64,000 bases of DNA from Reyranella sp. (GTDB lineage: Bacteria; Pseudomonadota; Alphaproteobacteria; Reyranellales; Reyranellaceae): NCBI RefSeq assembly GCF_017305915.1, contig NZ_JAFKJN010000011.1:62001-126000 (forward strand), given 5' to 3'. Under the pieces are notes generated by a model. The model did no database searches, was not told where the DNA came from, and was given only the letters and a program-made list of their open reading frames with translations. The position numbers were made by a program, and so were the translations under genes. Positions 3,289 through 10,193 of the stretch are shown here, piece by piece; position 1 is the stretch's first letter, and the number at the start of each line of letters is the position of its first letter.

Positions 3289-3988
3289 CCGCGTAGCCGC
3301 AGGCCTGCAGCGCCTTCAGCATGTGCGCCGGCGGCGGCGCTTCGACTCGGATCGGCGGCTTGGTCTTGCTGAGCGGCAGCACGATCGCATGGCTCTGCAG
3401 GTGGAGTTGGCGGTTGGGCGCTGCCTTGCCGTAGAGCCGATCACCGATGATCGGACAGCCGGCGTGGGCGCAATGCACACGGAGCTGATGCGTGCGGCCG
3501 GTCTCCGGCGTGAGCTCGAGCCAGCTCATGCCGGGCGCGCGGCCCAGCACGCGGTAGCGCGAGACAGCCGTCTGACCCGTGTCGGACACCTTCACCGACC
3601 AGCCGCTCCGGGTATTCACCTTGAGCAACGGCCAGTCGAACACGCCCTCGTCGGCTGGCGGCGCGCCCTCGACAACGGCCCAGTAGGTCTTCTCGGTGTC
3701 GCGACCGGAGAACAGCCGGCCGAGCTTGGCCAGCGCCTTGGGATGCCGGCCGAGCACCAGCACGCCCGCGGTGTCGGCATCGAGGCGATGCGCCAGCGCC
3801 GGCGGCCGCGGCAGGCCGTAGCGCAGGGCGTCGAAGCATTCCTCCAGGTTCGGCGCGCCGCTCGGGCCGGCATGGACGGCGAGGCCGGCCGGCTTGTCGA
3901 TCACCAGGATCAGCCCGTCGCGATGGAGCACGCGCGCCTGGATCTCCTCCGCCGTGAGCGGAGGACGGCGCCTCAGAGGTCGGGCCAT
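3260..3988 (-). CDS. RluA-family RNA pseudouridine synthase
   Basis: 242-residue enzyme that would isomerise a specific uridine in rRNA or tRNA. The catalytic motif HRLDADTAG (Asp70) is intact, preceded by VIDKPAGLAVHAGP and followed by ETGRTHQLRVHCAHAGCPIIGDRLYG, all hallmarks of the RluA family. No S4 domain is present, as in short RluA-type enzymes. The frame remains open upstream to 4288 but that part is antisense to the amidase, so I start at the ATG at 3988. It overlaps the amidase end by 16 bases, so it is probably co-transcribed with it. The exact RNA target cannot be read from sequence. Confidence 0.9.
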   Translation of the reverse strand: MARPLRRRPPLTAEEIQARVLHRDGLILVIDKPAGLAVHAGPSGAPNLEECFDALRYGLPRPPALAHRLDADTAGVLVLGRHPKALAKLGRLFSGRDTEKTYWAVVEGAPPADEGVFDWPLLKVNTRSGWSVKVSDTGQTAVSRYRVLGRAPGMSWLELTPETGRTHQLRVHCAHAGCPIIGDRLYGKAAPNRQLHLQSHAIVLPLSKTKPPIRVEAPPPAHMLKALQACGYAATAAPAPRS

Positions 3989-7509: not shown

Positions 7510-8835
7510 TCAGCCGCTAGTGTCGGAGCGGGCGATGTCCGCCCCGACGGCCGCCAGTTTCTCCGCCATGCCGTCATAACCGCGGTCGAGATGCTCGAGG
7601 CCGTCGAGCCGCGTCTCGCCGTCGGCGGCGAGGCCCGCGATGATCAGGGCCGCGGCGGCGCGCACGTCGGTGCAGGTGGCGGCGGCACCCTGCAGCCGCG
7701 CAACGCCGCGCACCAGCGCGGTGCGGCCGACGACCGCGATGTTGGCGCCGAGCTTGCGCAACTCGCCGACATGGCGGAATCGCTGCTCGAATACCGTCTC
7801 GGTGACGGCGCTCGCGCCGGCGGCCAGCGCCAGCAGCGCCATGGTCGGTGCCTGCAGATCGGTAGCGAATGCCGGGTAGGGGCCGGTCGTGATGTCGATG
7901 CCACGCAGTCCGTCGCGGGCACGCTCGACGATCACGCCGTCCTGCGTCTCGTGCATGGCGATGCCGGCCGCCTCGTAGAGGGGCGCCGCGGCGCCCAGCA
8001 GCGCGATGCGGCCGTGCGGCAGCACGAGGCGGCCATCGCTCGCCGCGGCGGCGCAGGCCAGCGTGCCGAACTCGATGCGGTCGGGCAGCACGGCGTGCAC
8101 GGCGCCGCCGAGGGCGCGGCCGCCCTCGATCGTCAGCTGATGGCTGCCGATGCCCGCGATCCGCGCGCCCATGGCGGCGAGGCAGGTGGCGAGGTCGGCG
8201 ACTTCCGGTTCGCACGCGGCGTTTCGGATGATGGTGCGGCCGTTCGCCAGCACCGCCGCCAGCATCAGGTTCTCTGTGGCGCCGACCGACGGCGTCGGCA
8301 GCAGGATGTCGGCGCCGTGCAGGCCATCGGGGGCCGTCGCTTCGATCATCCCGCCGTCGAGGGCGATGGTGGCGCCCATCGCGCGCAGGCCGGCGATGTG
8401 GAAGTCGATGCCGCGCAGGCCGATGGCGTCGCCGCCCGGCAGCGGCAGGCGCGCCTCGCCGCAGCGCGCCAGCAGCGCGCCGAGCAGCAGGACCGAGGCG
8501 CGCATGCGCGAGACCAGTTCCGGGTCGATGTCGGCCGGTCGCAGCCGATCGGCCGACATCGTCACGGCCAGACCATCGGCGCGAGCCGACCAGTGCATCT
8601 CGCAGCCCAGCCGCTGCAGCAGCGCGGCCAGCACGGCGACATCGAGGTTGCCGGGCACGTTGCGCAGGGTGACGAGATGCGGCGTCAGCAGGGCCGATAC
8701 CATCAGCGGCAGGGCGGCGTTCTTGGCGCCGCTGATCGGATAGGTGCCGACGAGCGGCCGTCCGCCGCGAACGACGAGGACGCGTCCGCTGCCGGGCCGC
8801 CACCACGGCGCGGCGGCGAGAAGCGAGGAGGTCAT
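7510..8835 (-). CDS. murA: UDP-N-acetylglucosamine 1-carboxyvinyltransferase (MurA), Asp variant
   Basis: 441-residue EPSP-synthase-fold enzyme that transfers enolpyruvate from PEP to UDP-GlcNAc, the first committed step of peptidoglycan synthesis. SGAKNAALPLM (Lys38, Asn39), ATDLQAPTMA and the C-terminal DRGYDGMAEKLAAVGADI match MurA. The active-site loop reads LPGGDAIGLRGIDFH: Asp136 stands where most MurA proteins have the fosfomycin-sensitive Cys115 (E. coli numbering). I start at the ATG at 8835; a GTG at 8874 would add 13 residues. The gene stands alone, divergent from the structured-RNA region. It could be a second MurA-like paralogue with another substrate. Confidence 0.9.
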   Translation of the reverse strand: MTSSLLAAAPWWRPGSGRVLVVRGGRPLVGTYPISGAKNAALPLMVSALLTPHLVTLRNVPGNLDVAVLAALLQRLGCEMHWSARADGLAVTMSADRLRPADIDPELVSRMRASVLLLGALLARCGEARLPLPGGDAIGLRGIDFHIAGLRAMGATIALDGGMIEATAPDGLHGADILLPTPSVGATENLMLAAVLANGRTIIRNAACEPEVADLATCLAAMGARIAGIGSHQLTIEGGRALGGAVHAVLPDRIEFGTLACAAAASDGRLVLPHGRIALLGAAAPLYEAAGIAMHETQDGVIVERARDGLRGIDITTGPYPAFATDLQAPTMALLALAAGASAVTETVFEQRFRHVGELRKLGANIAVVGRTALVRGVARLQGAAATCTDVRAAAALIIAGLAADGETRLDGLEHLDRGYDGMAEKLAAVGADIARSDTSG

Positions 8836-8858
8836 CGCCGGATGATAGGTGCCCGCCG

Positions 8859-8887
8859 TTGACAGGGCCACCACGGCGGCTTAAACA
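8859..8887 (+). promoter_or_regulatory. Predicted sigma-70 promoter
   Basis: TTGACA at 8859-8864 and TAAACA at 8882-8887 are separated by 17 bases, giving a consensus -35 and a good -10 on the plus strand. Initiation would fall at about 8894-8895. It lies between the divergent murA start and the structured RNA region, and would drive the 16-codon frame, the terminator hairpin and, on readthrough, the acetyltransferase gene. Confidence 0.55.
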
Positions 8888-8894
8888 ACCGCCC

Positions 8895-8945
8895 ATGACC
8901 ACGAACCTGCTCACCAAGGGTTGGTATTTTACGTCGCTAAAATAG
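8895..8945 (+). CDS. Possible 16-residue leader peptide
   Basis: An ATG at 8895, at or within one base of the predicted transcription start, opens a 16-codon frame reading MTTNLLTKGWYFTSLK and ending at TAG. It has no upstream room for a ribosome site, so translation would be leaderless. It contains adjacent Trp, Tyr and Phe codons and sits just before an intrinsic terminator with an alternative pairing partner, the layout of a transcription-attenuation leader. Chance occurrence of such a short frame is quite possible. Confidence 0.3.
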   Translation: MTTNLLTKGWYFTSLK

Positions 8946-8971
8946 GCGGCGCGAAAGGTCATGAACCCAAC

Positions 8972-9004
8972 GAAGCCGCCGCTCCCGGCGGCTTCATTGT
9001 TTCT
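8972..9004 (+). terminator. Rho-independent terminator (intrinsic)
   Basis: GAAGCCGCC (8972-8980), loop GCTCCC, GGCGGCTTC (8987-8995): a perfect 9-bp GC-rich stem followed by ATTGTTTCT. It is oriented to stop plus-strand transcripts and lies 46 bases before the acetyltransferase start, so it separates the predicted promoter from that gene. Confidence 0.7.
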
Positions 9005-9050
9005 GAGACTGGGCCTCCGGGTCGCGGCGGGACCGCAAACGGAGGATCAG

Positions 9051-9572
9051 ATGTCGATCGCAGAAGCCCTCTCAGACGAAGCGGAAAGACCGCCGCTAGC
9101 CATTCGTGTGCGTCAGGCGAGCCTGCGCGACTACGAGGAGTTGTGCGCGCTGTTCGACGAGCTCGACGAGATCCATCGCCAGGCGCGGCCGGACATGTTC
9201 CAGCCGTTCCCGCCGCCGGCGCGCACGCGCGAGCAGGTTGCCCATTGGCTGGCGCAGCCGGAATCGACGGTGCTGGTGGCGCAGAGCGAGGAGGGCGTGG
9301 TCGGCCTCGCCGTGTTGCTGACCCGCGTGCCGTCGGGCTTCGCCGGCGCCGTGCCGCGCAAGGTGATCGAGGTCGACAATCTCGTGGTCCGCGCCGACCA
9401 GCGCGGCCGCAAGATCGGCCGCCGTCTGCTCGCCGCCGCCGTCGAATGGTCGCGCCAGCGCCGCGCGACGCATGTCGAGGTCGCCGTGCACGACTTCAAC
9501 CGCGACGCCAAGCGCTTCTACGAGAGTTTCGGCTTCTCGCCCTCGATCGACCGCCTGGTGCTGGCGGCCTGA
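9051..9572 (+). CDS. GNAT family N-acetyltransferase
   Basis: 173-residue acetyl-CoA-dependent acetyltransferase. The acetyl-CoA loop is seen in VRADQRGRKIGRRLLAAAVEW, preceded by the beta-strand VIEVDNLVV and followed by VAVHDFNRDAKRFYESFGF, the standard GNAT order. GGAGG at about 9041 sits properly before the ATG at 9051. An in-frame ATG at 8961 would make the N-terminus read through the terminator hairpin, so I reject it. The GST gene follows after 12 bases. The acceptor substrate is not predictable. Confidence 0.88.
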   Translation: MSIAEALSDEAERPPLAIRVRQASLRDYEELCALFDELDEIHRQARPDMFQPFPPPARTREQVAHWLAQPESTVLVAQSEEGVVGLAVLLTRVPSGFAGAVPRKVIEVDNLVVRADQRGRKIGRRLLAAAVEWSRQRRATHVEVAVHDFNRDAKRFYESFGFSPSIDRLVLAA

Positions 9573-9584
9573 CCGGAGGCATCG

Positions 9585-10193
9585 ATGAAGCTGATCGGCG
9601 TCAACCGCTCGCCCTACACCAGGCGTGTGGCGATCACCCTTACGGCCCTGGGGGTGCCCTACGAGCAGAGCTGCGTTTCTGGCTTCGGCAATCGCGAGGA
9701 GGTGCGCGGGCACAATCCGCTCGGCCGCATCCCGGCGCTGGTGCTCGACGACGGCGAGACGCTGATCGACAGCGGTGCGATCGTCGATCATCTCGACGAG
9801 CGTTACGGCGGCGGGCGGCCGACGATCCCGCGCGCCGGGCCGGAGCGGCGCGCGGTGCTGAAGCTGGCGGCGATGATGATCGGCGCCTGCGACAAGGGCC
9901 TGCAGGCCGCCTACCATCGCAACCACACGCCAGCCGAGAAGCGCCACCAGCCCTGGGTCGACGACTGCACGGCGCAGATGGTGCACGCGCTGACGGCCGT
10001 TGACGCAATGGTCGATCCGGCGGCGCCGTACCTGCTGCTCGGCCGACTGACCCAGGCCGACATCACGGCGTTCGTCGCCGAGCGGCTGGCGCGGTTCGGC
10101 CTCAACGTCGACACGGCGACGCAGATGCCGCGGCTCTACGCGCACGCGCGCAAGCTCGGCGAGGAGGCGGCCTTCCGCTCGACCGAACCCTGA
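9585..10193 (+). CDS. Glutathione S-transferase family protein
   Basis: 202-residue GST-like protein. The N-terminal thioredoxin fold shows NRSPYTRRVAITL, the NPLGRIPALVLDDG segment with the cis-Pro, and an ESGAI-like IDSGAIVDHLDE. The all-helical C-terminal domain includes LTQADITAFV, the conserved N-capping motif. It follows the acetyltransferase closely with its own GGAGG, so it is probably in the same transcript. It may conjugate glutathione to electrophiles or act as a reductase; specific substrate unknown. Confidence 0.88.
   Translation: MKLIGVNRSPYTRRVAITLTALGVPYEQSCVSGFGNREEVRGHNPLGRIPALVLDDGETLIDSGAIVDHLDERYGGGRPTIPRAGPERRAVLKLAAMMIGACDKGLQAAYHRNHTPAEKRHQPWVDDCTAQMVHALTAVDAMVDPAAPYLLLGRLTQADITAFVAERLARFGLNVDTATQMPRLYAHARKLGEEAAFRSTEP

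Follow-up and report, generated by a model that had tools for sequence, protein, structure and literature searches.

A predicted ribosome-mediated attenuator with tryptophan, tyrosine and phenylalanine codons upstream of a GNAT acetyltransferase gene in Reyranella and its relatives

Known attenuators and the Reyranella locus

Amino-acid attenuators are usually taken as marks of operons for the biosynthesis of a single amino acid. In the alphaproteobacterium Sinorhizobium meliloti, the trpL-trpE(G) attenuator (rnTrpL/peTrpL) has a leaderless ORF of 14 amino acids at the 5′ end of the transcript, the position of the ribosome selects terminator or antiterminator, and a small RNA is released (PMC7298713). 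It is a precedent for a leaderless attenuator ORF (PMC7298713), and the Reyranella element described here is predicted to share the leaderless start, the choice by ribosome position and the released RNA. The two differ in codons and target: S. meliloti trpL uses consecutive Trp codons only and controls trpE(G), whereas the Reyranella element has a single codon for each of Trp, Tyr and Phe and precedes a GNAT gene with a buried Shine-Dalgarno (SD) site.

Phe_leader (RF01859) and the enterobacterial pheA and trp leaders also combine a control-codon leader peptide with stems 1:2 and 3:4 that compete with stem 2:3, but codons, target and taxon are different, and the Reyranella start is predicted to be leaderless. 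In translational attenuators of the erm type, a leader ORF frees a buried SD site through shifting hairpins. The Reyranella element resembles these in leader ORF, buried SD site and shifting hairpins; it differs in that its first gate would be a transcription terminator and that the proposed signal is charged tRNA, not a drug. Two further systems are related by description. uORFC-8-2, located before cysS in Rhodobacterales, is a ribosome-mediated attenuator from Alphaproteobacteria that controls an aminoacyl-tRNA synthetase gene, but it uses Cys codons (PMC8632094). uORFC-13-1, located before the DAHP synthase gene aroF in Acholeplasma, is a short ORF with Phe codon(s) beside a -10/-35 promoter and a terminator, but it is restricted to Acholeplasma, without a reported Trp-Tyr-Phe array and without a GNAT gene (PMC8632094).

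The stretch analysed here (the window) comprises 64,000 nucleotides of a Reyranella sp. contig. Rfam 15 gave no match in the window at the gathering score, and relaxed thresholds gave no family; the best match below the cut-off was Phe_leader with 28 bits (gathering score 55, E 0.0056). This agrees with the first-pass annotation, made from the sequence alone, which knew of no described family with this arrangement and had proposed the Rfam search. A literature search found nothing on Reyranella attenuators or on leader peptides of alphaproteobacterial DAHP synthase genes. Some of the members without a GNAT gene may already be mentioned in a comparative study of proteobacterial attenuators, reportedly published by Vitreschak and colleagues in 2004 and cited in PMC1273637. 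The mechanism is textbook; the switch, its target and its spread in one alphaproteobacterial group appear to be undescribed. The element is unusual both in its target gene and in that three amino acids would be sensed by one codon each.

The first-pass annotation had placed the unit at 8859-9004. All parts were found there, but the unit continues past 9004 with GCCTCCGGG (9013-9021), which pairs with the GNAT SD site at 9040-9045. The whole element spans 8859-9050, between murA and the GNAT gene, up to the GNAT start codon. The parts of the locus are:

7510-8874, minus strand: murA, divergent neighbouring gene
8859-8864, plus strand: -35 hexamer TTGACA, invariant in 30 aligned loci
8881-8886, plus strand: position of the -10 hexamer, TTAAAC in the window and TATAAA or TATAGA in relatives (from the alignment)
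8895-8945, plus strand: leader ORF MTTNLLTKGWYFTSLK, 16 codons plus stop, predicted to be leaderless; ATG, frame, length after the Trp codon and stop kept in the relatives examined
8922-8930, plus strand: control codons TGG TAT TTT (Trp-Tyr-Phe), present in 30 of 30 blastn-found loci and 10 of 10 loci from other genera of the family
9051-9572, plus strand: GNAT acetyltransferase gene, the putative controlled gene, 173 amino acids (Pfam Acetyltransf_1, E 2.3e-18), with the leader in front of it in the family members examined

The consensus promoter that had been claimed stood in its -35 part, which is surrounded by flanks and a spacer with a mean pairwise identity of only 0.34-0.38 in the 30 aligned loci. 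The window itself has a degenerate -10 hexamer (TTAAAC at 8881-8886, or TAAACA as read in the first-pass annotation), and a simple sigma-70 scan did not call the window promoter. In most loci the ATG lies some six bases downstream of the -10 box; a leaderless mRNA is therefore predicted.

Conservation of the leader ORF and its target gene

A blastn search with a query of 161 bases found the element, once per genome, in 33 of 36 congeners (34 of the 37 genomes of the genus, that of the window included) and gave no match in 24 genomes outside the genus. Among the close relatives named in the database are Reyranella massiliensis 521, R. aquatilis and Enhydrobacter aerosaccus ATCC 27094. The covariance model R1, built from 30 blastn-found loci, identified the element in 69 of 76 genomes from the order. 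Each of the four other genera of the family that were sampled is represented among these; in the single genome of the sister family the model found none. Identity was 1.00 in the -35 hexamer, 0.38 in the spacer, 0.95 in the Trp-Tyr-Phe-Thr codons, 0.98 in segment 2 of the RNA and 0.97 in the terminator. From the anti-SD to the SD sequence it was 0.93, compared with 0.34 upstream and 0.50 in the GNAT codons past the first five. The conservation of -35 hexamer and stems in related genomes, which the first-pass annotation had named as a check, was thus found, and its view that these components would hardly meet by chance is borne out by an element that is conserved, with covariation, in five genera of the family and beyond.

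The predicted 16-codon ORF was confirmed as a conserved feature: its ATG (8895-8897) lies at the predicted transcription start in relatives as well, and Trp-Tyr-Phe is invariant. In the window these residues are codons 10-12 (Trp 8922-8924, Tyr 8925-8927, Phe 8928-8930), and the stop codon is TAG at 8943-8945. Trp-Tyr-Phe-Thr keeps a constant distance from the stop codon in 30 of 30 blastn-found loci, and the ten loci from other genera end in WYFTSLP, WYFTSCT or WYFTSLT followed by the stop. Among 67 distinct leaders the Tyr codon is TAT in 50 and TAC in 17 and the Phe codon is always TTT; because this set was gathered with the pattern TGG-TAY-TTY, only the 30 and the 10 loci count as unselected. 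The half of the peptide before Trp drifts in sequence and, by whole codons, in length (MNGRSIASRWYFTSLP, MTGRRHHFGWYFTSLP and MSNRCHACWYFTSLP, each given to the stop). One whole codon is lost in MSNRCHACWYFTSLP and MANHPHSSWYFTSCT, and the ORF shows in-frame indels of 3 nt. The residues following Thr vary as well (S/L/P, L/P and T/K/P at successive positions). Constant control codons, synonymous variation in the Tyr codon and a kept frame and stop are, as judged from the sequences, what a translated short ORF with control codons would leave behind. The TrpL peptide of Escherichia coli reads KGWW near the same place, which we take as a lead only.

A decayed second copy of the leader was observed in one genome (G073:C325:20846-20960; positions 3847-3961 of locus L092). 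It reads Trp-His-Phe, has lost its ATG and lies about 1.1 kb upstream of the intact leader; it is followed by a GNAT start that soon diverges. In the genome of the window, a relaxed model search found no second leader; the next match (25.9 bits) lies at the end of an ordinary gene that has a terminator, and no such leader precedes tyrS or class II DAHP synthase genes of this genome.

The GNAT protein is a plain Acetyltransf_1 member with no specific family above cut-off. Its AlphaFold model (pLDDT 85) resembles polyamine, aminoglycoside and N-terminal acetyltransferases to much the same degree, and a PDB search returned only generic GNAT neighbours, with BH1408, which is annotated without a substrate, as the best structural match. 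In most Reyranella loci (L002-L030) the leader is followed by a tandem pair of GNAT genes; some 18 residues between helices 1 and 2 are missing from the first copy, and the second has the full length. The species of the window has a single full-length GNAT, and both ends of this protein resemble those of the first tandem copy. In six congeners the leader is missing, and so is a close orthologue of the GNAT; these genomes have only distant GNATs (26-37% identity) or none. Part of this joint absence may be missing sequence, since some of the six genomes are incomplete, while G005 is 99% complete. The GST gene (9585-10193 in the window) had been seen as part of the arrangement; beside the GNAT gene it is shared with only one other genus among the loci examined (L086, G094) and lies outside the conserved unit. 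As neither the GST gene nor the divergent murA is constant among the loci, both were dropped as partners.

Competing stems and the position of the ribosome

The RNA can be divided into six segments, which pair in two alternative ways:

8932-8938, plus strand: segment 1, CGTCGCT, pairs with segment 2 (94% of cells paired in 19 sequences)
8945-8951, plus strand: segment 2, GGCGGCG, near-invariant, partner of segment 1 (attenuated) or segment 3 (antiterminator)
8956-8968, plus strand: small hairpin nGGTCATGACCn within the antiterminator loop, outer pair UA, AU, GC or GU across relatives
8972-8981, plus strand: segment 3, 5′ arm of the terminator, perfect 10-bp stem, covariation AU/UA/CG and in the outer pair
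8986-8995, plus strand: segment 4, 3′ arm of the terminator, on the same basis
8996-9003, plus strand: T-rich tail and predicted termination end
9013-9021, plus strand: segment 5, anti-SD sequence GCCTCCGGG, identity 0.93, pairing with the SD kept
9040-9046, plus strand: segment 6, SD sequence CGGAGGA of the GNAT gene, 4 nt before the ATG

The claimed pairing of GGCGGC (8945-8950) with the 5′ terminator arm proved correct: the hexamer is exactly complementary to GCCGCC at 8975-8980, and the 2:3 pairs are kept in 99% of cells in 19 diverse sequences. Of the two perfect internal hairpins that had been noted, one corresponds to the functional stem 1:2, and the second is weak. The terminator likewise stood as a perfect stem, but its T tract in the window is mediocre (ATTGTTTCTG). 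The outer pair of the small hairpin is spoiled in the window by a one-base insertion. The closing stem CATGACC/GGTCATG exists in the window, but it was dropped as a core element because many relatives lack it.

The fold of the window RNA is more stable than all dinucleotide shuffles (z -4.5, 0 of 200). In the attenuated structure (1:2, 3:4, 5:6) 95.5% of cells are paired in the 19 diverse sequences, compared with 37-69% when partners are slid out of register. Six pairs are changed on both sides, among them a terminator pair that changes from A-U to U-A or C-G and an inner pair of the SD hairpin; none of 500 shuffles reached this figure or the 95.5% pairing. The stems, for which the first-pass annotation had asked for a covariation check in relatives, thus covary. 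Antiterminator 2:3 and intrinsic terminator 3:4 are mutually exclusive, and 1:2 serves as the protector stem.

To relate the stems to the position of the ribosome, each leader was folded with the RNA under the ribosome removed and with the transcript ending before segment 4. The leading edge was assumed to lie 13 nt downstream of the A-site codon's first base. With the A site at Trp, Tyr, Phe or Thr, the probability of 2:3 exceeded 0.5 in all 66 leaders (median 0.99); with the A site at the stop codon this was the case in none of the 66, and without a ribosome in 17%. Under the assumed 13-nt edge, a ribosome at the control codons would thus free segment 2 and one at the stop codon would cover it. 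In the window the probability was 0.97-0.99 at codons 10-13, 0.49 at the next codon and 0.00 later. According to these values, the invariant residues occupy the end of the control window, immediately before the position at which a waiting ribosome would start to cover segment 2. A ribosome waiting at codons 5-9 would permit 2:3 too, so the response would not be strictly confined to Trp, Tyr and Phe; in this model they are the best-placed waiting sites, though not the only possible ones.

With the whole terminator present, the terminator always wins at equilibrium: the probability of 2:3 is 0.00, and the attenuated fold has -51.3 kcal/mol compared with -44.5 kcal/mol for the antiterminator (2:3 plus 5:6). 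The switch must therefore be decided kinetically, during transcription. A choice made during transcription has been modelled for trp and his (PMC1183508).

The predicted course is as follows. RNA polymerase would start at the ATG or about one base earlier, and the leaderless ORF would be translated first. If all three aromatic tRNAs are charged, the ribosome would reach the stop codon and cover segment 2, the 3:4 terminator would form, and termination would release an RNA of about 110 nt. If any of them is short, the ribosome would wait at codons 10-12, covering segment 1 and leaving segment 2 free to pair with segment 3 before segment 4 is made; the terminator would be pre-empted and transcription would enter the GNAT gene. 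Without a ribosome, 1:2 would form, making termination the default.

A second gate may act on translation, as the 5:6 hairpin is predicted to bury the GNAT SD site. The 5:6 pairings of the loci's own segments are stronger than swapped ones (permutation P=0.0005-0.0016; 0.0005 with one locus per group). Segment 4 freed by antitermination can pair with segment 5, so antitermination may release translation too: CCCGGCGGC at 8984-8992 is complementary to segment 5 apart from one constant C.U mismatch, as would be expected if segment 4 must fit segment 3 while segment 5 must fit the SD. Segments 4 and 5 of the same locus pair more strongly than those swapped between loci (P 0.0035 in 12 groups; 0.045 without loci L180 and L067). 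In the window, the 4:5 duplex is not unusual compared with shuffled sequence (fraction 0.13), and combining 2:3 with 4:5 (-42.0) brings no gain in stability over 2:3 with 5:6 (-44.5). We regard coupled SD release by 4:5 as a reasonable inference with moderate support that may hold, not as a result.

Related leaders, alternative readings and biological meaning

R1 and a broader covariance model, R2, were run on sampled Alphaproteobacteria outside the order. Leaders with WYFS precede GNAT genes in genomes G167 and G458; the GNAT of G167 is 46-48% identical to that of the window. In one genus of the same family (g179), WYF or YYYWF leaders such as MHTRAVFTNWYFTLLP (to the stop) and MTFAANYYYWFISS precede stand-alone S4 proteins of about 87-97 amino acids, which match the C-terminal S4 domain of TyrRS (profile search: 51 bits, residues 343-424). 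In G284 (MTEMMHITAVYFARLP, to the stop) and G466 (MTRALIQSCVFYTSSP, to the stop), with control codons VYF and VFY, the leader is followed by tyrS. Leaders with Tyr-Tyr precede prephenate dehydrogenase in G256 and G355, a YFWYF leader precedes a class I DAHP synthase in G432, and an FYDRWY leader precedes a second class II DAHP synthase in G196. An aromatic gene thus clearly follows in the relatives located before tyrS, prephenate dehydrogenase and DAHP synthase. Aromatic-rich and, by prediction, leaderless leaders before aromatic genes elsewhere support, by sequence comparison, a sensing of aromatic aminoacyl-tRNA. All leaders outside the order may go back to one common ancestor, or some may have parallel origins.

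Among the R1 and R2 matches with E values above 1e-5, many are bare terminators, so the case for the weaker members depends on the ORF, the promoter and the gene context, all read by eye. Many weak matches in other genomes (L068, L070-L073, L075-L080, L184 and L188; E 3e-6 to 1e-3) were discarded by eye as plain terminators. Loci L066 and L067 (R1 E 2.4e-9 and 1.8e-6) went into the building of R2 and therefore count as R1 finds only.

Some further observations were made at these loci. The stand-alone S4 loci (L178, L179, L183, L190-L192, L194-L196) belong to one alphaproteobacterial genus, and in the types tested the domains were not recognised by Pfam or NCBIfam, except at L181. G284 (L206, L215) and G466 (L211, L216) each have two tyrS genes, just one of them behind an aromatic attenuator; this leader-borne second tyrS is possibly an inducible TyrRS. 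The second class II DAHP synthase of G196 (contig C11; L132, L133) is apparently frameshifted, with two overlapping matches in different frames.

The first-pass annotation had left the choice between sRNA and attenuator. The attenuator is strongly supported by the conserved, predictedly leaderless ORF, the invariant Trp-Tyr-Phe, the covarying stems, the ribosome geometry and the like leaders before aromatic genes. We give a probability of about 0.86 to the reading that the element is a ribosome-mediated transcription attenuator which would report the charging of tRNATrp, tRNATyr and tRNAPhe; a shortage of aromatic amino acids would then most likely let transcription continue into the GNAT gene. 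Here codon conservation, competing stems, covariation, geometry and GNAT co-occurrence are properties of the aligned loci, and transcript ends and starvation response are predictions drawn from them. Points against the attenuator are the target outside aromatic biosynthesis, the modest T tract, the poor -10 box of the window and the required kinetic decision.

It is unlikely that the main product of the locus is a small RNA acting in trans, or a short leaderless mRNA that encodes a functional peptide, and that the GNAT gene is merely its neighbour. The strong -35 element and a compact, structured product of about 110 nt with a terminator would suit such an RNA, and in S. meliloti the attenuated rnTrpL RNA and the peptide peTrpL act in trans (PMC7298713). 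Yet conservation continues past the terminator, as the identity of 0.93 between anti-SD and SD shows; leader and GNAT are missing together, and like leaders are found in front of other aromatic genes. The N-terminal half, which is free to change, speaks against a peptide that has a target of its own.

Slightly less probable still is a nascent-chain arrest peptide of the TnaC or ErmCL type, with which a ligand, for instance free Trp or an antibiotic, would halt the ribosome and so induce the acetyltransferase for detoxification or resistance. Such a role is compatible with the weak similarity of the GNAT to drug-modifying acetyltransferases and with the Pro that precedes the stop codon in some leaders, but arrest peptides need defined tunnel residues, and here those before Trp are unconstrained and those after Thr variable. 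In addition, Trp-Tyr-Phe is swapped for V-Y-F, Y-Y or Y-Y-Y-W-F in step with the downstream gene, which fits codon sensing. We consider a metabolite-binding riboswitch, or a protein-binding attenuator that happens to hold a small ORF, very improbable: the RNA is highly conserved and has several stems, but most invariant bases are explained by control codons or segments 1-6, no further aptamer-like conserved loop is left, and there was no Rfam match at cut-offs. The reading that promoter-like, ORF and terminator sequences met by chance between divergent genes, as the GC-rich window with its poor -10 might suggest when taken alone, is already refuted by conservation with covariation in five genera of the family and beyond.

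For the attenuator, a more far-reaching version can be drawn, which we hold to be tentative and on balance doubtful. The six segments would work as a domino that senses all three aromatic tRNAs and gates transcription and translation together (1:2, 3:4 and 5:6 off; 2:3, 4:5 and a free SD on). Placed as a movable module in front of duplicate tyrS genes, stand-alone TyrRS S4 domains and GNATs, it would serve genes that together make up an emergency kit for times when the charging of aromatic tRNAs is blocked; the GNAT would be a new enzyme that detoxifies or that protects tRNA.

What the GNAT does is best judged from its leader. Since similar leaders precede second tyrS genes, TyrRS S4 domains and enzymes at the entry to the aromatic pathway, our guess, by analogy, is that the GNAT might act when aromatic-tRNA charging is blocked by starvation, analogues or synthetase inhibitors. 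The Trp-Tyr-Phe codons kept throughout the family would tie an anonymous GNAT to aromatic-tRNA charging and so offer a direct handle on its function. R1 and R2 can serve as search models for further aromatic leaders. The like leaders before a second tyrS and before isolated TyrRS S4 domains point to an unrecognised aromatic-starvation regulon in Alphaproteobacteria.
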